A DNA stretch of 64,000 bases from the NCBI GenBank assembly GCA_016215605.1, contig JACRJB010000025.1, positions 1 through 64,000 of the forward strand. Direction: 5' to 3'. Below are positions 14,502-60,104 of the stretch, in pieces (within the stretch, counting starts at the first letter, position 1; every line of letters starts with the position of its first letter). The stretch comes from Rhodopseudomonas palustris. Lineage in GTDB: Bacteria > Pseudomonadota > Alphaproteobacteria > Rhizobiales > Xanthobacteraceae. The notes under the pieces are model-generated. The model saw only the letters and a program-made list of their open reading frames with translations. It had not been told where the DNA came from and made no database searches. Both the position numbers and the translations under genes were made by a program.

Positions 14502-14523
14502 CAATCGTTTTCAGACAGCGTAA

Positions 14524-14541: not shown

Positions 14542-14567
14542 GGTCGCGCATCGACAACGGAGTGATG

Positions 14568-14804: not shown

Positions 14805-14835
14805 CTCACCGATGTGAAGGATCATGGAGCCCGCA

Positions 14836-16809: not shown

Positions 16810-16860
16810 GCGGCCGTGTTGGGTCGTCTCGTCGGAAATTAGGATTTCGTCGATCAACCG

Positions 16861-16890
16861 GAGCTCCGCGGCGCAAGCCGCGGGGCTCTT
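16861..16890 (+). terminator. Terminator hairpin after the protease gene
   Basis: The 12-bp stem GAGCTCCGCGGC / GCCGCGGGGCTC has one G-T pair and loop GCAA, followed by a short CTT. It resembles the stems at 12371 and 17287. Confidence 0.65.
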
Positions 16891-16993
16891 GCATGGGGCG
16901 GATCCGTCGCGGCATTCGGCCGGGGACGCCCTGCAATTGAACCTATCGGAACCCGGCGCGTTACCCGCTCACAACATTCGCAAGGAACATGAC

Positions 16994-24962: not shown

Positions 24963-25040
24963 CGGAGCGTGGCGCAGCCCGGTTAGCGCACTAGTCTGGG
25001 AGACTAGGGGTCGAAGGTTCAAATCCTTTCGCTCCGACCA
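24963..25040 (+). tRNA. tRNA-Pro (GGG anticodon)
   Basis: The cloverleaf reads directly: acceptor CGGAGCG / CGCTCCG, a D arm with GCGCAGCCCGGTTAGCGC, anticodon stem CTAGT / ACTAG closing the loop CTGGGAG (anticodon GGG), and the T arm GAAGGTTCAAATCCTTTC. The encoded 3' end is ACCA. It lies after merR and just upstream of an AT-richer orphan gene. Confidence 0.97.
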
Positions 25041-25089
25041 TTTTGATTAAACTGCTGGAATCTTCAATCTCCGGGGGCGTGGGGAATGA

Positions 25090-25695
25090 ATGAGACCAAT
25101 TCATATTCAGAGCCGGCCAAAATCACCTTCAAAGGCTTTCGCGCTCGAATCGCCACTTCATCTACTTAGCAAGCTCCATTGGGAGGTCCACCAACTGAGA
25201 TCGTCTCTAAAGACGACACAGCCCGTGGGGCTTTTGCATGTGCCAGCCTACCATGCTTTCAACTGCGCGATAACAAGCTGGCACCTCTCGGATTGGACAT
25301 GGGAGTATATTGACGACAAGACCAAGCAGTTAGTTTCCGAGCAACTGAGTAAACCACTTGAGACCCTCGAACACTTCCAAAGAGCTCTTCGGAAGAAACA
25401 TCGTACACTCCACCTCTGTTGGCAGCTCTGCAATGGGTCCAAACATTTCCGGCTGAAAAGGGTAGACGACGTCGAGATCGAAACGCAGAGCGTCTGGCAA
25501 CATCATCCACCGATGGCAGGATCGCTACAAGCCGGACAGTCCGTAGAGTCGCACCAGTACACACTAAGCGTGACCGACCAAGGCAAGCGCCTTCAGGCTT
25601 TGCAACTTTTCGAGAATGCCGGGTCCATCTGGTGCGATGAATTAGCCTCGTGGTTCGTGATCGAAGGTCGTTTTATCGACGAGTCGACCGAATAA
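25090..25695 (+). CDS. Orphan hypothetical protein beside tRNA-Pro, low GC
   Basis: A 201-residue protein of no recognised family. It is rich in Trp, His, Gln and Lys (SWHLSDWTWEYIDDKTKQL, LCWQLCNGSKHFRLKR), likely soluble and helical, with no signal or membrane segment. Base composition is about 47% GC where counted (25321-25380), against about 65% around it, and codon use differs from its neighbours. It starts 50 bases past a tRNA 3' end, a usual integration site, so recent acquisition is likely. An out-of-frame ATG at 25086 gives a short overlapping frame (27 codons). No integrase or second attachment site is seen. Confidence 0.6.
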   Translation: MRPIHIQSRPKSPSKAFALESPLHLLSKLHWEVHQLRSSLKTTQPVGLLHVPAYHAFNCAITSWHLSDWTWEYIDDKTKQLVSEQLSKPLETLEHFQRALRKKHRTLHLCWQLCNGSKHFRLKRVDDVEIETQSVWQHHPPMAGSLQAGQSVESHQYTLSVTDQGKRLQALQLFENAGSIWCDELASWFVIEGRFIDESTE

Positions 25696-25947
25696 TACCC
25701 AGATAGGCTGTCCTCGCCTTAGAGGAATTCTCGTGCAACAGATCGGTCCGAGGCGGCAGCGGTGCCGATTGCCGATGCATGCGATACATCGTTGATAGTA
25801 GCGGAAAAACGCCGAGCGCCGCAAGGCTGCGAACGGTGTTGACGTGAATCGATAGCCTCATTTCTTCGACCTCTTCTAACCCCGCCTGCGGTGCTTCGCG
25901 GCGCGTGATCCTGTACGCGACGAGCGTCACGTGAAGGGGGCTTTCAA

Positions 25948-28218
25948 ATGACGACAACAACATTCGGGCGAACCGGAGCGGTCGGAATTCTGGCGGCGAT
26001 GTCGTTCGCCATGCTTTCATCGACTTCGCTCGCTCAGACCAATCTGCCCGCGGTCACCGTCGACGCGCCGCGCACCGAGCGCGGCCGCGCGGCGCGCCCC
26101 GTGGCCAGCAACCGCGCCGGCACCACGCGCCGCGTGACCGCGCGCCGCGATACGCCGCCGCCGGTCGCGCCGGTGCCGTATCTCGTGCCGCGCACCGGCA
26201 CGCTCGGTGCGCTGCCCGCGCCTTATGCGGGTGGTCAGGTCGCGAGCGGCGGGCAGGTCGGCTTTCTCGGCAATCGCGGCATTCTCGACACGCCGTTCAG
26301 CCAGACCAGCTACACCGCGCAATTGATGCAGGACCAGCAGGCGCGGACGATCCGCGACGTCGTCGCCCACGATCCGTCGGTCCGCGCGGTGACGTCGGCG
26401 GGCGGCGGTCAGGACGGCTATTTCATTCGCGGCTTCTACTACGACGTCGGCGATCTGGCGCTCAACGGGATGTACGGCATGGCGCCGTTCTGGAGCGTCG
26501 GCGCCAATTTCATCGAGCGCGTCGAGATCCTCAAAGGTCCGACCGCACTGCTCAACGGCATCTCGCCGCTCGGCGCGGTCGGCGGCAGCATCAATCTGGT
26601 CACCAAGAAGGCGCCGGACTACGACATCACCCAGCTCACCGCGACCTACGCGTCGCGCTCGCAATTCGGCCTGCAGGCCGACGTCGCGCGGCGCTATGGC
26701 GCGCACAAGGAGTGGGGCGTCCGCTTCAACGGCAGCTACAGCGACGGCAAGACGGCGTTCGACCGCCAGACCAGCGAATTCGGCAATGCGGTGCTCGGCC
26801 TGGACTATCGCGGCGAGAACGTCCGCGTCTCCGCCGACGTCGGCTATCAGGCCAACAACCTGAACCCGCCGATCCGGTTCTTCAGCTTCCCGGCGACGCT
26901 CGTGCCGCTGCCGCCGGCGCCCGCCGCGAATTCCAACGCGATCCCGGATTGGGCGTATTGGAAGCCGAAAGACACCTTCGCGACGGTGCGCGCCGAAGTC
27001 GACGTCGCGCAGGGGCTGACGGTGTACGGCGCCGCCGGCTATCACCAGGCCAAGATCGACTTCAAGTTCCTGTCGCCGGGCATCCTCAACCGGGCGGGCG
27101 ACTACAGCTCGCGGCCGTTCGGCGGCGAGCAGACCTTCACGGCCAAGACCGGCGAAGTCGGGCTGCGCGCGGAAACCGACACCGGCCCGGTCAACCACAA
27201 ATTCGTGGTCAACTACGGCGTGTTCGACCGGCCCAACGAGAATTCCTATCTTGCCGCGGGCGGTGTCGTCGGCTCGAACATCTACAACTACAAGCCGATC
27301 CCGGAGCCGCTGTTCACCGTTCCGATCCGCAACACGGTCGGCCTGACGCAGTGGAGCGTCGGCGCGGCGGATACGATGTCGATCCTGAACGGCGCGGTGC
27401 AGGCCGTCGTCGGCGTCCGTCGCCAGCATGTCAGCAACAGCTCGACCGATCTGCTCACCAATGTCACCACGGGACAGGACGGCGCCGCCTGGAGCCCGGC
27501 CTACGCGCTGCTGCTGCGGCCGATGTCGAATGTGACGCTGTACGCCAACTACATCGAGGGGCTGCAGCCGGGCACCACGGTCGGCGCCGGTTACATCAAT
27601 GTCGGCCAGGTGTTTCCACCATTCCAGACCAAGCAGGTCGAGACCGGCGTGAAGGTCGATTTCGGCCGGATCAGCGTCACCGGCAGCCTGTTCGACATCA
27701 AACAGCCGAGCGCGATCGCATCCAGCTCGAACGGCCTGCTGACGCTGTCGGTCGACGGCGTGCAGCGCAATCGCGGCGCCGAACTCAACGTCTTCGGCGA
27801 AGTGGCGCCGGGGCTGCGGCTGCTGGGCGGCATGGCCTACATCGAGGGCGCGTTGGAGAAGACCGATCGAGGCGTCAACGACGGACACCGCGCGCCCGGC
27901 GTGGCGCGGGCCAACGTCAATCTCGGCGCCGAGGTCGACGTGCCGTGGATCCAGGGGTTCACGCTGACCGGGCGGGTGATCCACACCGGGGCGAGCTACG
28001 CCAATGCCGCCAACACCCAGGTGCTGCCGGCATGGACGCGGTTCGACGTCGGCGCACGCTACACCTTCCTGTCGCCGTGGAACGGCAAGCCGATCGTGGT
28101 CCGCGCCGCGATCGAGAACGTCGAGAACCTGGCCTACTACGCGTCGTCCTACAGCGGCAGCGCGATCGGGCTCGGCGCGCCGCGAACCTATCTGGTGTCG
28201 ACGACGTTCAACTTCTGA
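25948..28218 (+). CDS. TonB-dependent siderophore receptor
   Basis: A 756-residue outer-membrane receptor. The signal peptide runs to about residue 30 (SSTSLAQ). A TonB-box-like stretch LPAVTVDAP (about 34-42) and a Pro/Arg-rich spacer follow. The plug domain covers about 105-225 (ARTIRDVVAHDPSVRAV, GYFIRGFYYD, VERVEILKGPTALL-like segment ERVEILKGPTALLNG, GGSINLVTKKAP). A 22-strand barrel ends with the terminal aromatic TFNF. The family imports ferric siderophores. It stands alone, with no transport or biosynthesis genes beside it. No clear iron-regulator box was found in the 250-base upstream gap. Confidence 0.92.
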   Translation: MTTTTFGRTGAVGILAAMSFAMLSSTSLAQTNLPAVTVDAPRTERGRAARPVASNRAGTTRRVTARRDTPPPVAPVPYLVPRTGTLGALPAPYAGGQVASGGQVGFLGNRGILDTPFSQTSYTAQLMQDQQARTIRDVVAHDPSVRAVTSAGGGQDGYFIRGFYYDVGDLALNGMYGMAPFWSVGANFIERVEILKGPTALLNGISPLGAVGGSINLVTKKAPDYDITQLTATYASRSQFGLQADVARRYGAHKEWGVRFNGSYSDGKTAFDRQTSEFGNAVLGLDYRGENVRVSADVGYQANNLNPPIRFFSFPATLVPLPPAPAANSNAIPDWAYWKPKDTFATVRAEVDVAQGLTVYGAAGYHQAKIDFKFLSPGILNRAGDYSSRPFGGEQTFTAKTGEVGLRAETDTGPVNHKFVVNYGVFDRPNENSYLAAGGVVGSNIYNYKPIPEPLFTVPIRNTVGLTQWSVGAADTMSILNGAVQAVVGVRRQHVSNSSTDLLTNVTTGQDGAAWSPAYALLLRPMSNVTLYANYIEGLQPGTTVGAGYINVGQVFPPFQTKQVETGVKVDFGRISVTGSLFDIKQPSAIASSSNGLLTLSVDGVQRNRGAELNVFGEVAPGLRLLGGMAYIEGALEKTDRGVNDGHRAPGVARANVNLGAEVDVPWIQGFTLTGRVIHTGASYANAANTQVLPAWTRFDVGARYTFLSPWNGKPIVVRAAIENVENLAYYASSYSGSAIGLGAPRTYLVSTTFNF

Positions 28219-28429
28219 GTGCGCGCGCCGCTCCCTCGCGATCGCACGCGGGCGGAGCGGCGCGCGGGTCGCCACGGCCGGCGACGCCAGCCGTCGACCT
28301 CGGCCCGTCCTATCGACGCGCCAGCGACGATGGGAAGCAGTTGCGTCTTTCGGCCGTCGTCTGCCGCGCTTTCGCCCGTCATGGAAATGTCATAGCGTGC
28401 CGACTCTCTGCAACGCCGAGGACACGACC

Positions 28430-30495: not shown

Positions 30496-30592
30496 GCGGT
30501 GCGACATAAAGAATCCATTCGAGATCGACGCGCGCGATGTAAGGGACCCGTAAAGATCCGTTCATGTTCCGCCTCGGGAAGCTACTTATCCT

Positions 30593-30649
30593 CACTGCAG
30601 TGGGAGAACTGAGATACTCACGTCCGGCGACTTGACCTATAGCTGTCGC
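30593..30649 (+). promoter_or_regulatory. Dyad-rich leader upstream of kup
   Basis: Three dyads lie in a row: CACTGCAGTG (30593-30602, perfect), TGAGATACTCA (30610-30620) and GCGAC...GTCGC (30627-30631 with 30645-30649). They sit 33-90 bases ahead of the kup ATG and could be operator or RNA-fold elements. No named riboswitch class fits. Confidence 0.35.
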
Positions 30650-30681
30650 AGAACACGGCCTGACGTTTCAGAGGTTCTTCC

Positions 30682-32586
30682 ATGAGCGACGCAGTCTCCA
30701 CGCCGCAAGCAGCCTTGCCGGCCCACCGTCCGACCTCGTTCCTGACGCTGTCGCTCGGCTCGATCGGCGTGGTCTATGGCGACATCGGCACCAGCCCGCT
30801 GTATGCGCTGAAGGAAAGCCTGACCGCCGCGTCGGCCGGCGCTCCGCTGACCCAGGCCATGGTGCTCGGCGTGCTGTCGCTGGTGCTGTGGACGCTGATC
30901 ATCATCGTCACGCTGAAATACGTGCTGCTGATCATGCGCGCCGACAATCACGGCGAGGGCGGCACGCTGACGCTGATGGCGCTGCTGCAGCACGTGATGC
31001 ACCGGCGCTTCGCGGCGATCTCGCTGCTCGGCATGGCCGGCGCGGCGCTGTTCTACGGCGACGCCATCATCACCCCGGCGATCTCGGTGCTGTCGGCGGT
31101 GGAAGGCCTCAAGCTGGTCGAGCCGGCGTTCGAGCCGTACATCCTGCCGCTGTCGATGGCGATCCTGATCGGGCTGTTCGTGGTGCAGAGCCGCGGCACC
31201 GCCGCGGTCGCCGCCTGGTTCGGGCCGATCATGCTGCTGTGGTTCGGTGTGCTCGCGGTCGGCGGCATCATGAATCTCATGAGCGATCTCAGCGTGCTGA
31301 ACGCGATCAATCCGCTCTACGGCATCGACTTCCTGCTGCATCACGGCCGCGCCGGACTGCTCGCGCTCGGCGCGGTGTTCCTCACCGTCACCGGCGCCGA
31401 GGCGCTGTATGCCGACATGGGGCATTTCGGCCGCAAGCCGATCCGGCTGGCGTGGTTCGTCGTGGTGTTTCCGGCGCTGGCGCTGTGCTATCTCGGGCAG
31501 GGCGCGATGCTGCTCGACCATCCGGAGAAGCTGGAGAATCCGTTCTTCTTCCTGTTCCCGGAATGGGCGCTGCTGCCGATGGTCGGGCTCGCGACCGCGG
31601 CGACGATCATCGCCAGCCAGGCGGTGATCTCCGGCGCGTACTCGCTGACCCAGCAGGCGATTCAGCTCGGCCTGCTGCCGCGGATGGACATCCGCCGCAC
31701 CTCGGAGACCGAGAAGGGCCAGATCTACATCCCGCGCGCCAACTGGCTGCTGCTGATCGCGGTGCTGTATCTGGTGTTCGCGTTCAAATCGTCGAGCGCG
31801 CTGGCCTCGGCCTACGGCATCGCGGTGACCGGCACGATGGTGATCACCAGCATCATGGCGTATTTCGTGATGCGGAAATGCTGGCGCTGGTCGACCGCGG
31901 CCGCCACGCTGGTGATCGCGCCGTTCCTCGCCGTCGACATGATCTTCCTGATGGCCAACATGCTGAAGATCTTCGAGGGCGGCTGGATTCCGCTGCTGAT
32001 CGGCGTCGGCCTGATGGCGGTGATGATCACCTGGCGGCGCGGCAGCAAGATCGTCGCCCGCAAGACCATTCGCGACGAGGTCGATCTCGACGACTTCATC
32101 GCCTCGATCTCGCATTCGTCGTCGATCGGCCGGGTGCGCGGCGTCGCGGTGTTCCTCACCGGAAACCCGAATTCGACGCCGACCTCGCTGATGCACAACC
32201 TCAAGCACAACAAGGTGCTGCACGACAAGAACATCATCCTGCGGGTGGTCACCGAGGACGTGCCGCGCGTGCCGGAACACGAGCGCTCCAGCGTCGAGAT
32301 CGTCAACGACCGGTTCTCGCGGATGGTGCTGCGGTTCGGCTACATGGAAAGCCCGAACGTGCCGAAGGCGATGGCCGGCTGCAAGGCGAACGACTTTGCG
32401 TTCGACATCATGAACACCTCGTTCTTCCTGTCGCGCCGGGTGATCCGTCCGGCGACGCCGTCCGAGATGCCGCGCTGGCAGAGCCTGCTGTTTGCCAACA
32501 TGGCGAAATGGGCCGACGATGCCAGCCTCTATTTCCGAATTCCGACCGGACGCGCGGTCGAAGTGGGGATGCAGATCAATGCCTGA
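30682..32586 (+). CDS. kup: Low-affinity potassium transport protein Kup
   Basis: A 634-residue K+/H+ symporter of the KUP/HAK/KT family with about 12 membrane helices and a cytosolic C-terminal domain. Typical motifs are GVVYGDIGTSPLYALKE, GEGGTLTLMALL, FYGDAIITPAISVLSA, and GAYSLTQQAIQLGLLPR. Length is normal. The start at 30682 gives a short polar N-terminus before helix one. Its last codons overlap the start of a DUF169 gene by eight bases, suggesting coupled translation. Confidence 0.95.
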   Translation: MSDAVSTPQAALPAHRPTSFLTLSLGSIGVVYGDIGTSPLYALKESLTAASAGAPLTQAMVLGVLSLVLWTLIIIVTLKYVLLIMRADNHGEGGTLTLMALLQHVMHRRFAAISLLGMAGAALFYGDAIITPAISVLSAVEGLKLVEPAFEPYILPLSMAILIGLFVVQSRGTAAVAAWFGPIMLLWFGVLAVGGIMNLMSDLSVLNAINPLYGIDFLLHHGRAGLLALGAVFLTVTGAEALYADMGHFGRKPIRLAWFVVVFPALALCYLGQGAMLLDHPEKLENPFFFLFPEWALLPMVGLATAATIIASQAVISGAYSLTQQAIQLGLLPRMDIRRTSETEKGQIYIPRANWLLLIAVLYLVFAFKSSSALASAYGIAVTGTMVITSIMAYFVMRKCWRWSTAAATLVIAPFLAVDMIFLMANMLKIFEGGWIPLLIGVGLMAVMITWRRGSKIVARKTIRDEVDLDDFIASISHSSSIGRVRGVAVFLTGNPNSTPTSLMHNLKHNKVLHDKNIILRVVTEDVPRVPEHERSSVEIVNDRFSRMVLRFGYMESPNVPKAMAGCKANDFAFDIMNTSFFLSRRVIRPATPSEMPRWQSLLFANMAKWADDASLYFRIPTGRAVEVGMQINA

Positions 32587-33373
32587 TGCGACGACGCCGC
32601 AGCCGACCGAGACGTTCGATTTCGCCACGATGGTCGCCGACCTCAACGCGCTGCTGCGGCTGAAGACCACCGTGATCGGCATGAAGATGTTCGCGAGCGC
32701 CGCCGAGATGCAGGCGATCCCGAAGATCCGGCGGCCGAACGCGATCCACACCACCGACCAGATCGTCAGCATGGCGTCGCGGCTCGGCTGGACCGTCGGC
32801 ATCACCGGCGACGATCTGGTCGGCGCGCAGTGCCGTGCGGTGATCGGGCTCGGGCCGCAGGACGAGCAGTGGCTCGACGGCCGCTCCTATGTCGGCGTCT
32901 GGCACGCCACGCAGGAGGACGCGCGCAAGCGCCAGGAGGCGCTGAGCGTGGTGCCGTTCGGCCAGTATCAGGCGATGGCGGTGTCGCCGCTGAGCAGCGG
33001 CCGGCTCGATCCGCCGGACATCTGCCTGGTCTATGCGACGCCCGGGCAGATGATCATCCTGATCAACGGCCTGCAATATGCCGGCTACAAGAAGTTCGAA
33101 TGGGGCGTGGTCGGCGAGACCGCCTGCGCGGATTCATGGGGCAGGGCGCTCGTCACCGGTGAGCCCAGCCTGTCGCTGCCGTGCTTCGCCGAGCGCCGCT
33201 ACGGCGGCGTGCCGGACGAGGAGATGCTGATGGCGCTGAAGCCGGCGCAGCTGGCGAAAGCGATCGACGGCATGAAGCAGCTCGCCAACAACGGCCTGCG
33301 CTACCCGATCGCTCCCTACGGCATCCAGGCCGACGTCCGCGCCGGCATGGGCGTGTCCTACGCGAAGACGTAG
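32579..33373 (+). CDS. DUF169 family protein
   Basis: A 264-residue protein of the DUF169 family (LLRLKTTVIGMKMF near the start, then CRAVIGLG, YQAMAVSPLSSGRLDPPDICLVYATPGQMIILINGLQY, CFAERRYGGVPDEEMLMALKP). Members are of unknown activity. Several Cys residues (in AQCRAV, DICLVY, ETACADSW, LPCFAERR) could bind a metal or cofactor. The ATG at 32579 lies inside the end of kup. The family has no established link to potassium, so any shared role is guesswork. Confidence 0.8.
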   Translation: MPDATTPQPTETFDFATMVADLNALLRLKTTVIGMKMFASAAEMQAIPKIRRPNAIHTTDQIVSMASRLGWTVGITGDDLVGAQCRAVIGLGPQDEQWLDGRSYVGVWHATQEDARKRQEALSVVPFGQYQAMAVSPLSSGRLDPPDICLVYATPGQMIILINGLQYAGYKKFEWGVVGETACADSWGRALVTGEPSLSLPCFAERRYGGVPDEEMLMALKPAQLAKAIDGMKQLANNGLRYPIAPYGIQADVRAGMGVSYAKT

Positions 33374-49580: not shown

Positions 49581-49672
49581 GATCACCCCAATTCAGGCGC
49601 CAGCCAGCCCGCTTCATTTGCGGCTCCGGGTGCGATAAGGCTCTTGCCCTCACGGACCAAGAGGAAACGCGC

Positions 49673-49975
49673 ATGATCACCGAAATCGCACAGATCGACG
49701 TCAAGCCGGGCAGCGAAGCTGACTTCGAGGCCGCCGTCGCCAAGGCCGGCGCCGCGTTCGGCCGCTCCAAGGGCTTCCACGGCTTCGAACTGCACCGCTC
49801 GATCGAGAAGCCGCAGCGCTATCGGCTGATGGTGAAGTGGGAGACGCTGGAAAACCACACCGTGGATTTCCGCGGCTCCGAGAACTTCGCCGAATGGCGC
49901 GGCCTGGTCGGCGCGTTCTTCGCGGCGCCGCCGGACGTCGAGCACACCACCACGGTGCTCACGATTCCGGGCTAG
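49673..49975 (+). CDS. Antibiotic biosynthesis monooxygenase (ABM)-domain protein
   Basis: A 100-residue ferredoxin-like ABM fold: MITEIAQIDVKPGSEADFEAAVAKAGAAF, FHGFELHRSIEKPQRYRLMVKWETLENH, FAEWRGLVGAFFAAPPDVEHTTTV. Members include cofactor-free monooxygenases and heme-degrading proteins; no heme-ligand pattern is obvious. The last 17 bases overlap the convergent AI-2E transporter gene. Confidence 0.85.
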   Translation: MITEIAQIDVKPGSEADFEAAVAKAGAAFGRSKGFHGFELHRSIEKPQRYRLMVKWETLENHTVDFRGSENFAEWRGLVGAFFAAPPDVEHTTTVLTIPG

Positions 49976-51191
49976 AGGCCAGCACGATCGGCGGCGCGGC
50001 GGTGACCGCCTCGGTGGCCGGTCCCTCCGCGCGCAGATGGTTGATCACGACCCGTCCGATTGCCATCAGCGGCAGCGCCATCGCCAGACCCCACAGCCCG
50101 AACACGATGCCGAGCAGGATCTGCATCGCGAACAGCGTCGCCGGCGGAATGTCGATCGCCTGACGCTGGATCAGCGGCGTCAGGATGTAGCTTTCCAGCG
50201 CGTGCACGCCGAGGAACAGCACGAAGGCGCTGACCACGGCGAACCAGCCCGAGGCGATCGCGGCGAGCACGATGATCAGGCCGCCGAGGATCGCGCCGAC
50301 GGTCGGGATGAAGGCGAGCAGGCCGGCCTGGATGCCGAGGATGAAGGCGCCGGGGATCCCGATCAGCGACAGGCCGATCGCCGTCACCGCGAACACCGCG
50401 CTCATGGTGATCAGCTGCGCCAGCAGCCAGCGCTTCAGCATCTCGCCTGTGTCCCGGACGATGGCGCTGGCCTGGGTGCGATAGCGTAGCGGCGCGACCC
50501 GCTCGAGACCGCGCCGGTAGACGTCGGGCTGTGCCGCGAAGGCGAGGCCGAGAAACATCACGATGAAGAAGTTGCCGACCGCACCGATGGTGCCGAGGAT
50601 CAGCTTCAGGGTCTGGCTGACGATCGCGCCGCCGCCGGAGGCGATCTCGCCGGCGCTGGGCAGGTTGCGCGGCTGCGGATTGGGCTGCGGCTCGGCCGCG
50701 GTGCTGCCGGCATTGGCGGAATTCGCCGCGTTGGTGGCGACGTTGAGTTCCATGAAGCTGGTGTCGACGCCCTGCCGCTCCAGGAAGGTCTTCACGTTGA
50801 CGATCTGGGTCTTGATGGTGCCGGACAGCGCGGTCGCCTGCTGGGCGATGGTGCTGCCGCCGAGCACTGCGATGCCGATGAACGCCGCCGTCAGCACCAC
50901 GCACACCAGCGTCAGCCGCAGCCCGTGCGGTCCGCCGATCACCTTGCCGGCCAGCTCGGTCAGCGCGTTGAGAAACACGCCGAACAGGATGCCGGCGAAG
51001 ATCAGGAACAGCGTCCCGGCGAAATGCCAGGAGGTGTAGAGCAGGGCGCCGAAGGCGACGGTGCTGACACCGCCGACGGCGATCGCCCAAGCGAGATCGT
51101 TGCGGGCCTGGAGACGATCGAAAACAGGAGCGGTCACGGGCAATTCCTCTGATGATCGCCCGAACATTCCGTCAAATCGCGGGCGACGCAA
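49959..51191 (-). CDS. AI-2E (PerM/TqsA)-family transporter
   Basis: A 410-residue membrane protein with about eight helices in the AI-2E exporter pattern (WHFAGTLFLIFAGILFGVFLNALTEL, LTLVCVVLTAAFIGIAVLG, then the long loop with NP-rich stretch, LAQLITMSAVFAVTAIGLSLIGIPGAFILG, FIPTVGAILGGLIIVLAAIASG, YILTPLIQRQAIDIPPATL). The family exports small molecules or ions, and an autoinducer role is seldom true outside E. coli. ATG at 51191 or 51167. Confidence 0.88.
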   Translation of the reverse strand: MRRPRFDGMFGRSSEELPVTAPVFDRLQARNDLAWAIAVGGVSTVAFGALLYTSWHFAGTLFLIFAGILFGVFLNALTELAGKVIGGPHGLRLTLVCVVLTAAFIGIAVLGGSTIAQQATALSGTIKTQIVNVKTFLERQGVDTSFMELNVATNAANSANAGSTAAEPQPNPQPRNLPSAGEIASGGGAIVSQTLKLILGTIGAVGNFFIVMFLGLAFAAQPDVYRRGLERVAPLRYRTQASAIVRDTGEMLKRWLLAQLITMSAVFAVTAIGLSLIGIPGAFILGIQAGLLAFIPTVGAILGGLIIVLAAIASGWFAVVSAFVLFLGVHALESYILTPLIQRQAIDIPPATLFAMQILLGIVFGLWGLAMALPLMAIGRVVINHLRAEGPATEAVTAAPPIVLASSPES

Positions 51192-51391
51192 GCGGCTCGC
51201 GATAGTCCGCGCAAGTCACTCGCATGTCACGCATTTGAAGCGATCGGTTAACCATGCGGCAGGCGTCCCCATTTTCGCCGTGATCCCTCTGCGATATGGT
51301 CACACTTCGCTGCCGATGTGGGTGGGCAGCGACCGCGGCTCGTGCAAGTCCGTGATGGGCGGCTGACCGCGGCAATGGTATTTGGGGATCT

Positions 51392-52342
51392 ATGGGGATT
51401 CGCGAGCGAGAATCGTATGGCCGCGCCGCGCGTGCGGTTGCCGCTGCGGGCGCGTGTCTGGTTCTCGCCAACTGCGCCCAATCCGGCAAGTTCAGCCGCG
51501 TCGATCCGAAATACGGCGTGTCCTCCAGCCCGCGCGTGGTCGGGCCGGGCGAACCGGTGCCCAAGGGCGGCGGAACCTACCGCGTCGGCAAGCCCTATAC
51601 GGTCGCCGGCCGGATGTACGTTCCCGAAGAGAATGCCAACTACCGCGCCGAGGGCATGGCGTCCTGGTATGGCGACGATTTCCACGGCCGCCTGACCGCC
51701 AATGGCGAAGTGTTCGACATGGCGTCGCTGTCGGCGGCGCATCCGACCCTGCCGATCCCGTCCTATGCCCGCGTCACCAATCTGAGCAACGGCCGCTCGC
51801 TGGTCGTCCGCGTCAACGACCGCGGCCCGTACCACGGCAACCGGCTCATCGACGTCTCGAACAGAGCCGCCGATCTGCTTGATTTCAAAAAGAATGGCGT
51901 CGCCCGCGTGCGGGTCGAATATGTCGGCCGGGCGCCGCTCGAAGGCTCCGACGACCGTCAGCTGGTCGCCACGCTGCGGACCAACGAACCGGCCCCGGCA
52001 CCGTCCACGGTCCGGATCGCGTCGGCCAAGCCGTTCGTGCCGGACATGCAGGGCGGCGGGCTCGCCACCCGGGCGATCCGCGGCGACGTTCCGATGCCGG
52101 AAGGCCGTCCGTATTCGCTCGGCAACACCTCGGTGGATGTCGCCTCGGTCAGCGCCACCTCGGAAATCTCGGCGTCGCGCAGCTCGCGCGGCGGCCGGAC
52201 CCTGGCGCGCAATCAGCACGCGGTGTCCTACGACAACGACGGCAACTACGCGGCGTCCGAGCCGCGCGCGCTGCAGCGCGAATCCGCCCCCCGCGGCAAC
52301 GACGAGATCGGCAGCCTGCTGTCGGCGCGCGGGCTTTACTGA
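51392..52342 (+). CDS. rlpA: RlpA-type septal lytic transglycosylase-like lipoprotein
   Basis: A 316-residue lipoprotein with lipobox LANC (about residues 26-29). The double-psi beta-barrel domain (MASWYGDDFHGRLTANGEVFDM, ALSAAHPTLPIPSYARVTNL, VVRVNDRGPYHGNRLIDVSNRAADLL) is complete. RlpA cuts denuded glycan strands at the septum. The C-terminal part (about 200-316) is disordered and lacks the SPOR domain usual in E. coli RlpA. Start at the ATG at 51392. Confidence 0.9.
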   Translation: MGIRERESYGRAARAVAAAGACLVLANCAQSGKFSRVDPKYGVSSSPRVVGPGEPVPKGGGTYRVGKPYTVAGRMYVPEENANYRAEGMASWYGDDFHGRLTANGEVFDMASLSAAHPTLPIPSYARVTNLSNGRSLVVRVNDRGPYHGNRLIDVSNRAADLLDFKKNGVARVRVEYVGRAPLEGSDDRQLVATLRTNEPAPAPSTVRIASAKPFVPDMQGGGLATRAIRGDVPMPEGRPYSLGNTSVDVASVSATSEISASRSSRGGRTLARNQHAVSYDNDGNYAASEPRALQRESAPRGNDEIGSLLSARGLY

Positions 52343-52352
52343 GCCGGACCGC

Positions 52353-53300
52353 TCAGGTCACCTGCCTGAGAAACTCGATCAGCGCCGCGTTGACCTCGGC
52401 GGGCTTCTCCTGCTGGATCCAGTGGCCGGCGCCGTCGATGATCAGCTTGCGCGTCAGGTTCGGCAGCACGCGCTCGATCGCGGCCAGATGCTTGCCGCTC
52501 ATCTTGTCGGAAATCACCGGGTCGTTCGCGCCGGCGATGAACAGCGCCGGCTGACGGATCTGGGCGTTCTGCCACGGCGCGGTCAGGTCCCAGTTGCGGT
52601 CGATGTTGCGATACCAGTTCAGCCCGCCGCGGAAACCGCTCTGCTTGTACTGCTCGATGAAATAGGCGAGCTCGGTTTCGCCGAGCCAGTCCGGCAGCGG
52701 CAAGGTTGCCGCCGACCGGCCGATGAAGCCGCGGCCCTCCGGCACGAACAGCGAGCGTGACGGATCGGCGAAACCGCCGCACAGCATGCCGCGCACCGTC
52801 GCGGCGACGTCGCGCTCGAATTCGGCCTCGGCGACGCCGGGCGTCTGGAAATATTGCCAATAGAAATTGCTGATTCCCGCCGCACTCAACAGCTCGAGCG
52901 GACGGCCCTTGCCGCGCCACGGCGGCGGCACGCTCAGTCCCGCGACCGCGGTGAACAGATCCGGCCGGAACAGCGCCGCATGCCAGGCGACCGGCGCGCC
53001 CCAGTCGTGGCCGACGATCACCGCGCTGGTCTGTTTCAATTCGCCGACGAGGGCGACCATGTCGCCGACCAGATCGAAGATGCTGTAGGCCTCGATCGGT
53101 TGCGGCGCCGACGAGCGGCCGAAGCCGCGCATGTCGGGCGCCACCACGCGAAAGCCGGCCTCGGCGAGCGCGGCGATCTGATGCCGCCACGAATAGGACA
53201 GTTCCGGCCAGCCGTGGCACAGCAGCACCAATGGCCCTTCGCCCTGTTCGCGCAGGAACAGTTCGATGCCGTTGACCGCAACGGTCCTGGTCGTTTCCAT
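52353..53300 (-). CDS. Alpha/beta-hydrolase, epoxide hydrolase-like
   Basis: A 315-residue relative of soluble epoxide hydrolases, with oxyanion loop HGWPELSYSW, nucleophile Asp99 (GHDWGAPVAW), lid tyrosines in the FYWQYFQTPGVAE stretch, and His293 (GAGHWIQQEKP). The paired lid Tyr and Asp nucleophile fit epoxide hydrolysis. It is distinct from the shorter relative at 17669. The start METTRTVAVNG is chosen; the frame runs on upstream into the divergent dacC promoter region. It is convergent with rlpA, whose stop is 10 bases away. Confidence 0.88.
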   Translation of the reverse strand: METTRTVAVNGIELFLREQGEGPLVLLCHGWPELSYSWRHQIAALAEAGFRVVAPDMRGFGRSSAPQPIEAYSIFDLVGDMVALVGELKQTSAVIVGHDWGAPVAWHAALFRPDLFTAVAGLSVPPPWRGKGRPLELLSAAGISNFYWQYFQTPGVAEAEFERDVAATVRGMLCGGFADPSRSLFVPEGRGFIGRSAATLPLPDWLGETELAYFIEQYKQSGFRGGLNWYRNIDRNWDLTAPWQNAQIRQPALFIAGANDPVISDKMSGKHLAAIERVLPNLTRKLIIDGAGHWIQQEKPAEVNAALIEFLRQVT

Positions 53301-53466
53301 CGCGTTTCCGCCCTGTTTTGATTGGAGTTTATGTGGCAGCGAAGCGGTCCGCACGATAGGATTGATCCGGCGCCACCACAATCGAAAACGGTCCGCGGCC
53401 ACCGTCCGGCCGGATGGGTGGAGAAGGTGCGCGCGGGTCGTTGAAAGCAGCTCCGGAACAATTTTC

Positions 53467-54726
53467 ATGGCTCGGTTCATCTCGTCATCGTCGATCGGAC
53501 TCCGCAGCCGCCGTCCGATCGGACGCGGGCTGCTCGCCGCGCTGCTGGTGCTGGCGATCGGCGCGGGTCCGGTCGTCGCCGCGAACCAGAGCGTGCAGGG
53601 CGCCAAGAAGGAGGAGGTCGTCGGCGGCTTCGAGACCGAAGCGCCGAGCGCGATCCTGATCGACGGCGAGAGCGGCAGCGTGCTGTTCGAGAAGAACGCC
53701 GACGAATTGCGGCCGCCGTCGAGCATGATGAAGCTGATGACCGTGGAGCTGGTGTTTCACCTGCTGACCAAGGGCGACATCAAGTTCACCGACGAGTACC
53801 GCATCAGCGAATACGCCTGGCGCCGCGGCGGCGCCCCGGCCGGCAATTCGACGATGTTCGCCGAGATCCACAGCAAGGTCTCGGTCGACGATCTCTTGAA
53901 GGGCGCCATCATCCAGAGCGGCAACGATTCCTGCATCGCGCTCGCCGAGGGCATCGCCGGCACCGAGCAGGCGTTCACCGAGCGGCTGAACAAGCGCGCC
54001 CGCGAAATCGGGCTGACCCAGTCGACCTTCGCCAATTCCAACGGGCTGCCGGATCCGGCCAACAAGATGAGCGTGCGCGAACTCGGCCGGCTCGCACGCC
54101 ACATCATCCAGACCTATCCGGACTACTACAAACTATTCAGCGAGAAGGAATTCACCTGGAACAAGATCCGGCAGACCAACCGCAACCCGCTGCTCAACGC
54201 GGTGACCGGCGCTGACGGCCTGAAGACCGGCTACACCAAGGACGGCGGCTACGGTCTGGTCGGCTCCGCGGTGCAGAACGGGATGCGGCTGATCGTGGTG
54301 GTCAACGGCGTCGAGGACATCGACGACCGCTCCACCGAGGCCAAGAAGCTGCTGGAATGGGGCTTCCGCAATTTCGAATCGCGGTCGCTGTTCGCCAGCG
54401 ACGCCACGGTCGGCTACGCCCGGGTGTTCGGCGGCGAGAAGCGCTACGTCCCGTTGATCCCGGCCGAGCCGGTGCGGGTGATGGTGCGCAAGAACGGCAG
54501 CGACAAGCTGATCGCGCGGATCGTCTATACCGGGCCGGTGGCCGCGCCGGTCGAGGCCGGCCGCCGCATCGGCGTGGTGCGGGTGTGGCGCGGCCCCAAC
54601 CTCGCCGTCGAGGTGCCGCTGCAGGCGGCCGACGCCAATCCGGTCGGCTCGACCATGCGGCGGGCGATGGACGGCGCCAGCGAGCTGGTGATCGGGGTGT
54701 TTCGCGCCGGCTTTGCAAAGCTCTGA
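53467..54726 (+). CDS. dacC: D-alanyl-D-alanine carboxypeptidase (PBP5 family)
   Basis: A 419-residue periplasmic penicillin-binding protein trimming peptidoglycan stem peptides. Signal peptide to about residue 39 (GAGPVVAAN). Active-site motifs are SSMMK (SxxK), SGN and KTGYT, all intact. A C-terminal PBP5 beta domain follows (about 310-395), with a final amphipathic helix for membrane attachment. It heads an operon with tmk two bases after its stop. The symbol is by family; exact paralogue type (dacA or dacC) is not certain. Confidence 0.9.
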   Translation: MARFISSSSIGLRSRRPIGRGLLAALLVLAIGAGPVVAANQSVQGAKKEEVVGGFETEAPSAILIDGESGSVLFEKNADELRPPSSMMKLMTVELVFHLLTKGDIKFTDEYRISEYAWRRGGAPAGNSTMFAEIHSKVSVDDLLKGAIIQSGNDSCIALAEGIAGTEQAFTERLNKRAREIGLTQSTFANSNGLPDPANKMSVRELGRLARHIIQTYPDYYKLFSEKEFTWNKIRQTNRNPLLNAVTGADGLKTGYTKDGGYGLVGSAVQNGMRLIVVVNGVEDIDDRSTEAKKLLEWGFRNFESRSLFASDATVGYARVFGGEKRYVPLIPAEPVRVMVRKNGSDKLIARIVYTGPVAAPVEAGRRIGVVRVWRGPNLAVEVPLQAADANPVGSTMRRAMDGASELVIGVFRAGFAKL

Positions 54727-54728
54727 AA

Positions 54729-55484
54729 ATGGTTGAACAAACCGAACAAACCATCTCGCCGATCGGCCGTTTCATCACCTTTGAAGGCGGTGAGGGGGCC
54801 GGCAAATCGACCCAGATCAAGCTGCTGGCGCAGCGGCTGGAGAAGGCCGGGCTGCAGACGCTGGTGACGCGCGAGCCGGGCGGCTCGCCTGGCGCCGAAG
54901 TGATCCGGCATCTGCTGCTGTCCGGGATCGGGCATCTGATCGGCGGCGCGCAGGCCGAGGCGCTGCTGTTCGCGGCCGCGCGCGACGATCACGTCCGCAC
55001 CCTGATCGAGCCGGCGCTGGCCCGCGGTGTCTGGGTGCTGTGCGACCGGTTCTACGATTCGACCCGGGTGTATCAGGGCAAGCTCGGCGACGTCAGCCCG
55101 GCGCTGCTCAACGCGCTGCAGGACGTCACCATCGGGACGATGCAGCCGGACCTGACCATCATCCTCGATGTTCCAGTCGAGATCGGACTGAAGCGCGCCG
55201 CGGTCCGCCGCGGCACTGCCGCGCCCGACCGGTTCGAGGGCGAGACCACCGATTTCCATCGCAAGCTGCGCGACGCCTATCGCCAGATCGCCACCGCCGA
55301 GCCGGGGCGCTGCGTGCTGATCGACGCCGATGCCGAGCCGAAGCTGGTCGCCGACCGGATCTGGCTGGCGGTGCAGGACCGTCTGCTCGGCTGGCCGCAG
55401 GCCAAGGTGAAGGCCGGCGCCAAGACCGCTGCCAAGGCCGGTGCCAAACCCGGCAAGGCCAAGGCGAAAGCGAAGACGGCATGA
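54729..55484 (+). CDS. tmk: Thymidylate kinase
   Basis: A 251-residue dTMP kinase. P-loop GGEGAGKST (about residues 20-28), TREPGGSPGAE, the DR of CDRFYDSTRVYQG, and the LID. It has a C-terminal tail of about 30 residues made of Lys/Ala/Gly repeats (AGAKTAAKAGAKPGKAKAKAK), not part of the kinase fold. The stop overlaps the holB start as ATGA. Confidence 0.95.
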   Translation: MVEQTEQTISPIGRFITFEGGEGAGKSTQIKLLAQRLEKAGLQTLVTREPGGSPGAEVIRHLLLSGIGHLIGGAQAEALLFAAARDDHVRTLIEPALARGVWVLCDRFYDSTRVYQGKLGDVSPALLNALQDVTIGTMQPDLTIILDVPVEIGLKRAAVRRGTAAPDRFEGETTDFHRKLRDAYRQIATAEPGRCVLIDADAEPKLVADRIWLAVQDRLLGWPQAKVKAGAKTAAKAGAKPGKAKAKAKTA

Positions 55485-56521
55485 GCGCGCGCAAGGCGGC
55501 GACCGAGATCGCGGCGAAAGCGCCGCGCGAGACCACGGCGCTGTTCGGCCACGCCGCCGCCGAGCAGGCGCTGCTCGACGCCTATCGCAGCGGCCGGATC
55601 GCCCACGCCTGGCTGATCGGCGGCCCGCAGGGCATCGGCAAGGCGACGCTGGCCTACCGGATGGCGCGGTTCGTGCTGGCGCATCGCGACCCGATGGCGG
55701 ATGCGGTGCAGGGCGCGGCGACGCTCGATCTCGACCCGTCGCATCCGGTGGTGCGCCACGTCGCCGCCGAGGCGCATGGCGGGCTGCTGACGCTGGAGCG
55801 CTCGGTCAACGACAAGGGTGTGCTGCGCAACGTCATCACCGTCGACGAGTCGCGCGAAACCATCGGCTTCTTCGGCTCGACCGCCGCGATCGAAGGCTGG
55901 CGGGTCTGCATCGTCGATACCGTCGACGACCTCAACGCCTCGTCCGCCAATGCGCTGCTGAAGGTGATCGAGGAGCCGCCGCAGCGCTCGCTGTTTCTGT
56001 TGATCAGCAACTCGCCGGCGCGGCTGCTGCCGACCATCCTGTCGCGCTGCCGCAAGCTGATGCTGCGGCCGCTGGCGACCGCCGACGTCGTCGCCGCCGC
56101 GCTCGAAGCCACCGATCTTTCGCCGGGCGACACCAAGCTCGCCGAGGCAGCCGAAGCGGCCGAAGGCAGCGTGTCGCGGGCGCTGACGCTGCTCGGCGGC
56201 GACGCGCTGACGCTGCAGCAGAAGACCACGGCGCTGCTCGACAGCTTGCCGAATGTCGACCCGCGCGCGCTGCATGCGCTGGGCGAGGCGATCGGCGGCA
56301 CCGACCGCGCCACACTCGCCGCCTTCGTCGACGGGCTCGACCGCTGGATCGCGCAGCGGCTGCGCACGCCCGACGCCAACGCGAATCTGCCGCGCCTTGC
56401 ACGGCTGGCGGAGGTGTGGGAAAAGATCGGCCGCGCCGCGCGCGACACCGAAGCCTATAATTTGGAGCGCAAGCCGCTGGTTTTCTCGGTGTTCGGGCTC
56501 CTCGCGGAGGCGGTGCGCTGA
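55481..56521 (+). CDS. holB: DNA polymerase III delta' subunit
   Basis: A 346-residue clamp-loader subunit. It shows AWLIGGPQGIGKATLAYRMARF (Walker A), VDDLNASSANALLKVIEEPP, LLISNSPARLLPTILSRCRKL (sensor 1 and SRC motif), typical of delta'. The zinc-finger Cys found in E. coli delta' is not obvious. It is in the dacC-tmk-holB-metG-tatD operon that is widespread in alphaproteobacteria. Confidence 0.93.
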   Translation: MSARKAATEIAAKAPRETTALFGHAAAEQALLDAYRSGRIAHAWLIGGPQGIGKATLAYRMARFVLAHRDPMADAVQGAATLDLDPSHPVVRHVAAEAHGGLLTLERSVNDKGVLRNVITVDESRETIGFFGSTAAIEGWRVCIVDTVDDLNASSANALLKVIEEPPQRSLFLLISNSPARLLPTILSRCRKLMLRPLATADVVAAALEATDLSPGDTKLAEAAEAAEGSVSRALTLLGGDALTLQQKTTALLDSLPNVDPRALHALGEAIGGTDRATLAAFVDGLDRWIAQRLRTPDANANLPRLARLAEVWEKIGRAARDTEAYNLERKPLVFSVFGLLAEAVR

Positions 56522-56600
56522 TGCGCTTGGGCGATCACACCGGCTGATGGTCAGCGCCGCCGCCCTCACTCGATCCTGTTGTTGAAAGGCGTCCGCGCAC

Positions 56601-58331
56601 ATGGCGCAGCGAAATTCATTCTACATCACCACCGCGATCTCCTATCCGAACGGCGCGCCGCATATCGGCCACGCCTACGAGGCGATCGCGACCGACGCGC
56701 TGGCGCGGTTCCAGCGGCTCGACGGCAAGGACGTGTTCTTCCTGACCGGCACCGACGAGCACGGCCTGAAGATGATCCAGACCGCGCAGAAGGAGGGGGT
56801 CGAGACGCACGTTCTCGCCGACCGCAATGCGGCGCGCTTCCGTGCCATGGACGACCGCTTCGGCGTGTCCTACGACCGCTTCATCCGCACCACGGAGGGG
56901 CAGCATCACCGCTCGGTCAAGGAAATCTGGAAGCGGATGGAGAAGAACGGCGACATCTATCTCGACTCCTATGCCGGCTGGTACTCGGTTCGCGATGAAG
57001 CCTATTACGCCGAGGACGAAACGACCGTCGGCGAAGACCAGGTGCGCCGCGGCCCGCAGGGCACGCCGGTCGAATGGGTCGAGGAGAAGAGCTACTTCTT
57101 CAAGCTGTCGGCCTATCAGGACAAGCTCCTGAAGCTGTACGAGGACCAGCCGGATTTCATCGGCCCGGACGCGCGCCGCAACGAGGTGGTCAGCTTCGTC
57201 AAGGGCGGGCTGAAGGACCTGTCGGTGTCGCGCACCACCTTCGACTGGGGCGTCAAGGTGCCGGGTGATCCGAAGCACGTGATGTATGTCTGGGTCGACG
57301 CCCTGACCAACTACATCACCGGCGTCGGATTTCCGAGTACCAAACTCTCTGCAAAACGATTGACACTTGATGAACGGCATGAGGTGAAAACGTATCGAGG
57401 CTTGCGAGAGAAAGGCAAAACGGCAGAGGAAGCCGCAAGAGAAATCGGACGGAATCGACAAACGCTTTATCGTTGGGAACGCAAATACGACGCTGAGACA
57501 TTCGAACTTTACTGGCCGGCCGACGTCCACGTCATCGGCAAGGACATCATCCGCTTTCATGCGGTGTACTGGCCGGCGTTCCTGATGTCGGCGGGCATCC
57601 CGATCCAGAAGCGCGTCTACGCCCACGGCTTCCTGTTCAACAAGGGCGAGAAGATGTCGAAGTCGGTCGGCAACATCGTCGACCCGTTCAACCTGGCCGA
57701 CCAGTACGGCGTCGATCAGGTGCGCTACTTCTTCCTGCGCGAGGTGCCGTTCGGCTCCGACGGCAGCTACAATCACGAGGCGATCGTCAACCGCATCAAC
57801 GCCGATCTCGCCAACGATCTCGGCAACCTCGCGCAGCGCTCGCTGACCATGGTGGCCAAGCAGTGCGACGGCGAGGTGCCAGCGCATGGCGCGTTCAGCG
57901 AGGCCGACAAGGCGATGCTGGCGATGGCTGACGGCATGATCGCGATCGCCCGCCCGGCGATGGCGACGCAGCAGATCCATCAGGCGCTCAATGCCGTTTG
58001 GGCCGTGGTTGCGGAAGCCAACCGCTACTTCGCCGGCGAGGCGCCGTGGGCGCTGGCCAAGACCGATCCGCCGCGGCAGAAGACGGTGCTGTACGTCACC
58101 GCCGAAGTACTGCGGCAGGTCGGCATTTTGGCGCAGCCGGTGATGCCGACCTCGGCGGCGAAGCTGCTCGACATCCTCGGCGTCGCGCAGGATGCGCGCG
58201 ACTTCGCGGCGCTGCCGACGCGGATCGTGCCCGGCACGAAGCTGCCGGCGCCGGCGCCGATCTTCCCGCGCTATGTCGAGCCGGTTCCGAAGGACGACAA
58301 CAAGCCAACGCCTAAGGATGGCCCTTGGTAA
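56601..58331 (+). CDS. metG: Methionyl-tRNA synthetase with in-frame HTH-like insert
   Basis: A 576-residue class I synthetase charging tRNA-Met. The HIGH-type motif [10 protein letters not shown] (about 20-29), the connecting domain, the KMSKS motif ([10 protein letters not shown]) and the anticodon-binding helices are all present and in frame. Between YITGVGFP (to residue 245) and [16 protein letters not shown] (from 301), relatives have a short loop. Here about 50 extra residues (about 246-300) read as a helix-turn-helix unit ([30 protein letters not shown]). The insert is about 47% GC against 62% on each side and uses A/T-ending codons. No stop or splice motif is present. It is probably functional with the insert as a surface loop. 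Confidence 0.95.
57336..57500 (+). mobile_element. In-frame foreign insert in metG (HTH-like, possibly mobile)
   Basis: A segment of about 165 bases that keeps the metG frame. Counted over 57336-57512 it is about 47% GC, versus 62% in 57241-57300 and 57541-57600. The encoded peptide resembles the N-terminal HTH of IS30/IS3-like transposases or resolvase-type proteins. No terminal inverted repeats or clear target duplication were found by eye. Calling it mobile is inference. Confidence 0.5.
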
Positions 58332-59122
58332 TGCTGATCGACAGCCACTGCCATCTCGACTTCCCCGACTTTGCCGACGACCTCGCCGGCATCGTCGCCC
58401 GCGCCGAGGCGAGCGGGGTGGGGCGGATAGTGACGATCTCGACCCGCGTCAAGCGGCTGCCGGAGTTGCTGGCGATCGCCGAGCGGTTTGCCAACGTCTA
58501 CTGCTCGGTCGGCACCCATCCGCATCACGTCGACGAGGAAGACGGCATCAGCGCCGACGAACTCGTCGAGCTGGCGCAGCACCCGAAGGTGGTGGCGTTC
58601 GGCGAGGCCGGGCTCGATTACTTCTACGAGCACGGCTCGCGGGACGCGCAGGAGCGGGGCTTTCGCACCCACATCGCGGCGGCGCGCGCAACCGGCCTGC
58701 CGCTGGTGATCCACACTCGCGAGGCGGACGAAAATTGCGGCCGCATCCTCGAAGACGAGATGGCCAAGGGCACGTTTCGCGCGGTGCTGCATTGCTACAC
58801 CGGCGGCCGCGATCTCGCGCTGCAGGCGATCGAGCTCGGACTGTTCATCGGCTTCACCGGCATCCTGACCTTCAAGAAGTCGCAGGCGCTGCGCGACCTC
58901 GCCGCCGAACTGCCGGCCGATCGCGTGCTGGTCGAGACCGACTCGCCGTACCTGGCGCCGGGCAAATATCGCGGCAAGCGCAACGAGCCGGCCTATGTGG
59001 TCGAGACCGCCAAGGTGCTGGCCGAGGTTCGCGGCGTGACGCCGGACGAGATCGCGCGCCAGACGACCGAGAACTTCTTCCGCCTGTTCGGCAAGGTGCC
59101 GGCGCCGGACGTCGCCGCATGA
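58331..59122 (+). CDS. tatD: TatD-family metal-dependent DNase
   Basis: A 263-residue TIM-barrel hydrolase ([77 protein letters not shown]). The metal ligands His6, His8, the Glu of GEAGLD, His of VIHTR, His of LHCYTG and Asp of ETDSPYL are present. Family members are 3'-5' exonucleases involved in DNA repair or tRNA turnover. The start overlaps the metG stop by one base (TAATG). Confidence 0.92.
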   Translation: MLIDSHCHLDFPDFADDLAGIVARAEASGVGRIVTISTRVKRLPELLAIAERFANVYCSVGTHPHHVDEEDGISADELVELAQHPKVVAFGEAGLDYFYEHGSRDAQERGFRTHIAAARATGLPLVIHTREADENCGRILEDEMAKGTFRAVLHCYTGGRDLALQAIELGLFIGFTGILTFKKSQALRDLAAELPADRVLVETDSPYLAPGKYRGKRNEPAYVVETAKVLAEVRGVTPDEIARQTTENFFRLFGKVPAPDVAA

Positions 59123-59919
59123 CGCTGACGCTCACCATCCTCGGCTCGGGCTCCTCCGCCGGCGTGCCGCGCCCGGCGCTCGGCTGGGGCGCCGCCGATC
59201 CGAGCAATCCGAAGAACCGCCGCCGCCGCTGTTCGCTACTCGCCGAACGCGTGACCCCGGACGGCATCACCCGCGTGCTGATCGACACCTCGCCGGATCT
59301 GCGCGAGCAACTGATCGACGCCGACGTCGATCATCTCGACGCGGTGTTCCTCACCCACGAGCACGCCGACCAGACCCACGGCATCGACGATTTGCGCTCG
59401 GTCGCGATGCACATGAAGCGGCGGATTCCGGTCTACCTCAATCAGTCGACCGCCGAGCACGTCGTGTTCCGCTTCAACTACTGCTTCGTCACGCCGCCCG
59501 GCAGTTCCTATCCGCCGATCCTCGACAAGCACCGCATCGAGGCCGGCGAGAGCCGCAGCATCGCGGGGGCGGGGGGCGAGCTGACGCTGTCGCCGTTCCT
59601 GGTGCAGCACGGCGACATCCCGGCGCTCGGCTACCGCATCGGCGGCGCGGCCTACACGCCCGACGTCCACGACATTCCGGAAGCGAGCTTCGCGGCGCTC
59701 GAAGGCCTCGACCTCTGGATCATCGACGGCCTGCGCTACAAGCACCACGGCAGCCACTTCAACATCGAAGCCGCACTGAAATGGATCGCCCGCTTCAAGC
59801 CGAACCGCGCCGTGATCACCAACATGCACGCCGACATCGACTACGAAACGCTGCGCAAGGAACTGCCGGCCGGCGTCGTGCCGGGCTTCGACGGGATGCG
59901 GCTGGAGGTTGGGGGCTGA
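59119..59919 (+). CDS. MBL-fold hydrolase, PhnP-like
   Basis: A 266-residue metallo-beta-lactamase-fold phosphodiesterase (LTILGSGSSAGVPRP, LIDTSPDLREQL, THEHADQTHGIDDLR, QHGDIPALGYRIGG, DGLRYKHHGSHFNIEAAL, NMHADIDY). The HxHxDxxH motif is intact. Relatives of PhnP act on cyclic phosphates; in this operon position the role is probably general nucleotide phosphodiester cleavage. The start overlaps the tatD stop as ATGA. Confidence 0.9.
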   Translation: MTLTLTILGSGSSAGVPRPALGWGAADPSNPKNRRRRCSLLAERVTPDGITRVLIDTSPDLREQLIDADVDHLDAVFLTHEHADQTHGIDDLRSVAMHMKRRIPVYLNQSTAEHVVFRFNYCFVTPPGSSYPPILDKHRIEAGESRSIAGAGGELTLSPFLVQHGDIPALGYRIGGAAYTPDVHDIPEASFAALEGLDLWIIDGLRYKHHGSHFNIEAALKWIARFKPNRAVITNMHADIDYETLRKELPAGVVPGFDGMRLEVGG

Positions 59920-59954
59920 TAGCAGCGCCGCGAGTGGCCTAAAGCCTCTCGTCC

Positions 59955-60104
59955 GTCATTCCGGGGCGCTCACGAAGTGAGCGAACCCGGAATCCATACG
60001 CCGCAGCGGTGCGGTTACGACGGGCGCCCGTTGACCTCCGTCGCCAATTGGCAAGCACAGTGGTTATGGATTCCGGGTTCGCGCTGCGCGCGCCCCGGAA
60101 TGAC
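59955..60104. repeat. Dispersed palindromic repeat, class D, first of a pair
   Basis: It opens GTCATTCCGGGGCGCTCACG with CTCACGAAGTGAG inside, and closes ATGGATTCCGGGTTCGCGCT ... CCCCGGAATGAC. Same class as 33388-33536. It lies between convergent genes. Confidence 0.88.

Follow-up and report, generated by a model that had tools for sequence, protein, structure and literature searches.

An in-frame helix-turn-helix tract of foreign appearance within the methionyl-tRNA synthetase gene of Rhodopseudomonas palustris

The metG locus and the limits of the foreign tract

The window analysed here is a stretch of 64,000 nucleotides from a draft genome of Rhodopseudomonas palustris (78 contigs), in which a forward-strand open reading frame (56601–58331; 576 amino acids, without internal in-frame stops) encodes methionyl-tRNA synthetase (MetRS). 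The product matches the models of the complete enzyme (NCBIfam NF008900, 648.6 bits against a cut-off of 598; TIGR00398, 496.8 bits), contains the catalytic and anticodon-binding domains, and, when aligned with six further MetRS, proves to retain its HIGH-type and KMSKS motifs, in agreement with the preliminary description of this DNA, which had regarded the motifs as intact. A single full-length metG match was found in the draft genome. Since the motifs are intact and the search gave no other metG that could stand in, the insert-bearing product should, as judged from its sequence, be a working enzyme. The features referred to below are as follows.

56601–58331, forward strand: metG, methionyl-tRNA synthetase, 576 aa (NF008900, TIGR00398; HIGH-type and KMSKS motifs present)
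57329–57509, forward strand: foreign-looking tract replacing the native loop (GGA TTT CCG ... CTT), delimited by private bases at 57332–57508 and the blastn gap, with a GC3 of 0.40
57336–57341, forward strand: left loop remnant, S246–T247, assigned by loop comparison
57342–57488, forward strand: core of the helix-turn-helix (HTH), K248–Y296, 49 codons (49 aa), with Pfam HTH_28 at 30.0 bits and three modelled helices
57489–57509, forward strand: right loop remnant, D297–L303 (DAETFEL), assigned by loop comparison; it resembles MetRS loops from outside the family, with 4,261/20,000 shuffles scoring as high on a 13-loop set

Compared by blastn with a genome of the same genus (G008), metG shows a single internal break (57334/57509), at which 174 nt in the window stand against 24 nt in G008, with a net gain of 50 codons at 57335–57508; the flanks align at 87% (49611–57334) and 89% identity (57509–59998). 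In an alignment with metG from 15 same-genus genomes, private bases of the tract begin at 57332 and continue to 57508, where the normal flank resumes, base 57329 being rare and shared with 1/15, and the adjoining 30-nt blocks contain 0–1 private bases each over more than 150 nt on either side. At the left edge, the codon GGA is found in 1/15 relatives and TTT in 0/15, both still reading G-F. The foreign codons extend from S246 to L303 (57336–57509), limits slightly wider than those first given. The GC3 of codons 246–300 is 0.40, against ~0.90 (0.89–0.91) in the rest of metG and a minimum of 0.818 among 55-codon stretches elsewhere in the gene, and, at 48.3% GC, 57335–57508 ranks among the lowest 0.1% of window stretches of its length (174 nt). 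Because of the blastn gap, the private-base limits, and the GC3 contrast, the in-frame foreign tract within metG is confirmed, and with it the low-GC, foreign composition originally noted. That a contaminant fragment was joined into the contig during assembly or sequencing is improbable: the draft state of the genome with its contamination estimate of 2.34%, the foreign composition, and the single record of the insert would be compatible with such an artefact, but the tract is exactly in frame with the motifs intact, both of its edges fall within one variable loop, and same-genus synteny continues on both sides.

Several other segments of the window also differ from the relatives. The C-terminus of MetRS (58272–58331) extends beyond that of the 15 same-genus relatives and ends in a private tail that contains lysine and proline. 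Low-GC stretches (24995–25216 and 25231–25479) overlap a tRNA-Pro gene (24963–25040) and continue past it, and the block from 25043 to 28312 has no good match in G008 apart from a short weak one; this arrangement (24963–28312) would suit an island joined at a tRNA gene. An isolated low-GC stretch (12500–12674) is located shortly past the end of a G008-alignable block, and the blocks 766–3788, 12406–16931, and 30498–32609 are without a G008 match at the settings used.

The predicted HTH domain and its resemblance to mobile elements

The mildly basic insert peptide (net charge about +5 by hand count) is above the cut-off of Pfam HTH_28 (25 bits) both by itself (30.0 bits) and within the whole protein (26.7 bits), and by itself also passes HTH_23 (25.4 against 24.6 bits), the other models listed being below their own cut-offs; the HTH identity proposed earlier is thereby upheld. 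An AlphaFold2 model of the whole MetRS, made from an alignment of 8 sequences, has a mean pLDDT of 88.6 and a pTM of 0.86, and contains the folded HTH with helices at residues 256–270, 275–282, and 286–304; the pLDDT drops below 50 at residues 249–251 and, taken in blocks of ten residues between 241 and 300, averages 73–87. Modelled alone, the insert peptide forms three helices with a mean pLDDT of 85.3 in the best model and 66–74 in the other four. We propose from these models that the insert encodes an independently folding three-helix HTH domain, and the MetRS core is predicted to be left undisturbed by its folding, in line with the initial expectation that MetRS would fold with the insert in place. 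The loop bearing the insert would be surface-exposed.

The relatives of this domain bear on one of the two leading accounts of its origin, namely that part of an HTH gene of the transposase, resolvase, or terminase type was captured directly by illegitimate recombination, coming into frame by chance and exchanging 24 nt for 174 nt. The best sequence resemblances of the insert are indeed to HTHs of mobile elements, all of them weak: the nearest HTHs, which we take on reading by eye to be of the IS3 OrfA type, show 48–57% over ~30 aa, IS30 elements on plasmids match at E 1 or worse, and the NCBIfam models of IS630, IS3, and IS481 score the insert far below cut-off. Phage DNA-binding and terminase families match at E 6e-5 or worse. 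A Foldseek search against the PDB gave 702 matches at E up to 10, all weak and none at E up to 0.001, the top ones being chains of a serine recombinase and of the IstA transposase, both with E above 0.1. The insert is thus of the same general HTH type (HTH_28) as the IS3, IS481, IS630, and IS30 transposases, but unlike them it has no catalytic part, IS ends were not seen, and its closest relatives share ~45–57% identity over ~30 residues. The insert neither scores as a transposase family (IS630, IS3, and IS481 models) nor lies next to IS sequence, its flanks being metG on both sides and alignable to the same genus. The captured transposase HTH of the preliminary description is still plausible, but a donor for it was not found and the IS3 OrfA-type, IS30, and IS630 resemblances are weak. 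At the DNA level, searches of the own genome, plasmids, and phages gave as the best hit one 33-nt plasmid match (E 0.1), which counts against direct capture; the adjacent synonymous changes and the MetRS-like DAETFEL-YW join are also left unexplained by it. We regard direct capture as a serious but tentative account, and it ranks as a near-equal second to acquisition from a foreign HTH-bearing metG, discussed below.

A small protein-coding element inserting in frame into many genes, comparable to the Rickettsia palindromic elements, was also suggested initially. The size (147–174 nt), the open frame, and the in-frame position within a conserved housekeeping gene fit such an element, but no second copy was found in the draft genome: at the protein level the search yielded one further match (E 0.138, 27 aa), apparently a piece of a long frame of unrelated content, and at the DNA level six further matches, 15–28 nt long (E 0.088 or worse). 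RNA folding of the insert is ordinary (z 0.64; 144/200 shuffles fold at least as well), with no stem-loop signal, and its ends have no convincing terminal repeats, showing a weak and asymmetric 14-nt inverted pair (12 of 14). No direct repeat was found at both ends as a target-site duplication, the diverged empty site keeping the target from being read exactly. HTH_28 was matched 24 times in the own genome (E up to 0.1), and 14 of these loci were read for sister inserts (the frames of L134 and L143 probably not being the matching ones); apart from metG itself, they are presumably, as read by eye, transposases, a sigma factor, sigma54-type activators, regulators of the LysR, LuxR, and GntR types, and similar proteins. 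Copies of the peptide inside unrelated genes, which the preliminary description had proposed to look for, were not found: besides the E 0.138 match in the own genome, the peptide gave weak HTH matches in 14 other genomes among the 391 of the family (best E 2.6e-4) and in 10 others among the 398 of the phylum (best E 0.0012). It is therefore very improbable that the insert is such a jumping element. Self-splicing introns and structured RNAs were likewise rejected, as Rfam gave nothing across 57000–57900 at E up to 1 and the folding is ordinary, and an intein, which we presume to be excluded by size alone, was set aside.

With respect to the known elements, the insert resembles the Rickettsia palindromic elements and ORF-bearing MITEs in being a coding, in-frame insert of ~100–200 bp in a conserved gene, and the open frame of this length fused in frame to the host gene was found; the multiple copies and the terminal inverted repeats or long stem-loop of these elements were not. 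Reviews describe the Rickettsia elements as palindromic repeats that occur in many genes (PMC2229807, PMC10969869), and a product carrying one can stay active, as in the gmk case (PMC2229807). The metG insert is, in contrast, single-copy and without a palindrome or stem-loop signal, and encodes a recognisable HTH, so that it resembles the Rickettsia elements only as an apparently tolerated in-frame coding insert. Among the lineage-specific domains inserted into or fused with aminoacyl-tRNA synthetases, the MetRS fusion of Mycoplasma penetrans (PMC13215547) is reported likewise to add a domain while leaving the catalytic core in place; the metG HTH differs from it in being an internal loop insertion with foreign codon usage in one sampled species.

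Distribution of the insert among relatives and other genomes

MetRS was present in all 16 same-genus genomes searched, and the insert was absent from all of the other 15, where the MetRS match breaks in two around the insert (query residues 1–246 or 3–246, then from 303 or 304); the absence of residues 246–300 from relatives, predicted at the outset, was thus observed. A 160-aa query spanning the insert, with the HTH core at residues 48–96, matched 363/391 family genomes, with an E value of 1.1e-109 for the source genome and 1.1e-34 for the best of the other 362, whose matches, among those listed, begin at query residue 96 at the earliest. An 86-aa query, with the HTH core at residues 13–61, was used on the genomes of the class and the order and matched 260/385 (E up to 1e-3) and 95/397 (E up to 1e-6), respectively; the E value of the source genome was 8.0e-56, those of the best others were 3.9e-8 (class) and 5.2e-9 (order), and the matches listed begin at residue 54 or later in the class and 61 or later in the order. 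Among the matches listed, no HTH-bearing MetRS other than that of the source genome was seen in these genomes of the family, class, and order, in searches where unrelated or strongly diverged loop inserts would not stand out. Two findings that would have spoken against the preliminary description, an insert common in the group and a second intact metG, did not appear in the draft genome or, among the matches listed, in the family.

Mobile DNA was also surveyed. MetRS matches on plasmids (30 listed of 255) span 315–348 nt and the 22 phage matches span 288–357 nt, with a query of up to 480, and no HTH-bearing MetRS donor was found among these plasmid matches, the phage matches, or the class, order, and family genomes. 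The insert peptide had no match in viral contigs, where a long-loop MetRS pattern gave 32 stretches, none of them recognisable as MetRS. No close donor of the insert was found in plasmids, phages, IMG/VR, and the species collection, the last of which gave one locus, in a Verrucomicrobiaceae MAG, with 57% over 30 residues of the insert; by eye, we take this locus to be an IS3 OrfA-like HTH. In the literature covered by titles and abstract openings, with most subscription journals outside, no HTH insertion in a bacterial MetRS was found. Altogether, the insert looks like a unique acquisition, recorded in a single species of those sampled.

As separate observations from the viral survey, MetRS genes of their own are carried by a large phage (L111, 1407–4306) and by viral contigs L101, L102, L112, L114, and L115. 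In the Microcystis phage MaAM05, metG is followed by one hypothetical gene and then a ycfH-type hydrolase gene, which recalls the metG–TatD order of L109 and L110.

The residual loop, the probable donor, and the meaning of the insert

When residues 248–296 are removed, a 17-residue segment remains, of which 12 residues are the loop proper. All 29 family loci read (29/29) have a nine-residue loop separating GF/GY from YW, which follows the pattern PDESDxNW(H/R) or a variant of it and has W at -2, and the loops of the class and order are ten residues long in 36/43 loci read, with F at -3 before YW in 40/43 and another aromatic residue in 3/43. Against a profile of 36 of these non-family loops the residual loop scores 12.6 bits, a value reached by 43/20,000 shuffles, in a test biased in its favour because the 43 loops were retrieved with a query containing DAETFEL; the 36 loops score themselves 18.9 at the lowest and 28.4 on average, so that the residual loop lies below all of them. 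Against the family profile it scores -7.0, reached by 12,380/20,000 shuffles. With 13 loops chosen otherwise, mostly from distant bacteria, the residual loop scored 2.78, level with a family loop (2.75), and 4,261/20,000 shuffles reached the former, the enumeration omitting the exact ST/DAETFEL join. Among 12 unselected loops (stretch L224, without a readable loop, being dropped), four have F at -3, four have Y, and four have neither, including the three from Alphaproteobacteria (Shinella, Sphingomonas, and Sinorhizobium). The comparison no more than suggests that the residual loop is closer to the MetRS loops found in other Alphaproteobacteria than to the family type.

The reading that we tentatively prefer, and to which we give somewhat less than even weight, is that a single recombination replaced ~180 bp of the variable metG loop with foreign DNA from a diverged metG bearing an HTH. 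One event would have swapped this stretch of one loop for foreign coding DNA of ~48% GC, joining through the conserved NYITGVGFP and YWPAD codons, and the incoming DNA would have added a three-helix HTH domain in frame, most likely from a donor whose metG already had the HTH in its loop. The product would be a MetRS with the HTH in the loop between a 16-residue and a 12-residue segment. Such a donor is favoured because the tract has sharp edges and normal flanks, because it seems to begin inside metG codons (GGA and TTT, still G-F), and because the residual loop fits the non-family profile (43/20,000) and not the family one (12,380/20,000); the GC3 of 0.40, the in-frame HTH above the Pfam cut-off and folded in the model, and the single metG lend further support. 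It is weakened by the bias of the profile, by a residual loop scoring below the lowest profile member, by the 13-loop set, which did not single out the residual loop, and by the failure to find an HTH-bearing MetRS donor in the searches described above. With all of this weighed, a foreign metG already carrying the HTH may be a slightly better reading than direct capture; we infer both the type of donor and the number of steps.

As to its effect, the HTH domain is most likely neutral, and a tolerated passenger is taken as the default because the HTH has been seen in one sampled species only. A selected function, such as an affinity of MetRS for tRNA, for its own transcript, or for DNA that would serve autoregulation, is improbable: the HTH scores above the Pfam cut-off, its three-helix model is confident, and the open frame is kept in a normally essential gene, but a single sequence from one sampled species gives no measure of selection, and the domain has no recognised binding site or partner. 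Somewhat less unlikely, though still a long shot, is an unsampled lineage of MetRS with a loop HTH for nucleic-acid binding (e.g. autoregulation), the module passing between species by short-tract recombination; if so, species would trade new domains at the metG loop.

The insert makes what seems a clean case of a foldable domain placed in frame in a single-copy housekeeping enzyme, with the composition of the donor still visible. It also offers an easy test of the tolerance of a tRNA synthetase loop for a new domain. Discovery of a donor MetRS bearing this domain would show that domains are exchanged within such an enzyme by sub-gene recombination.
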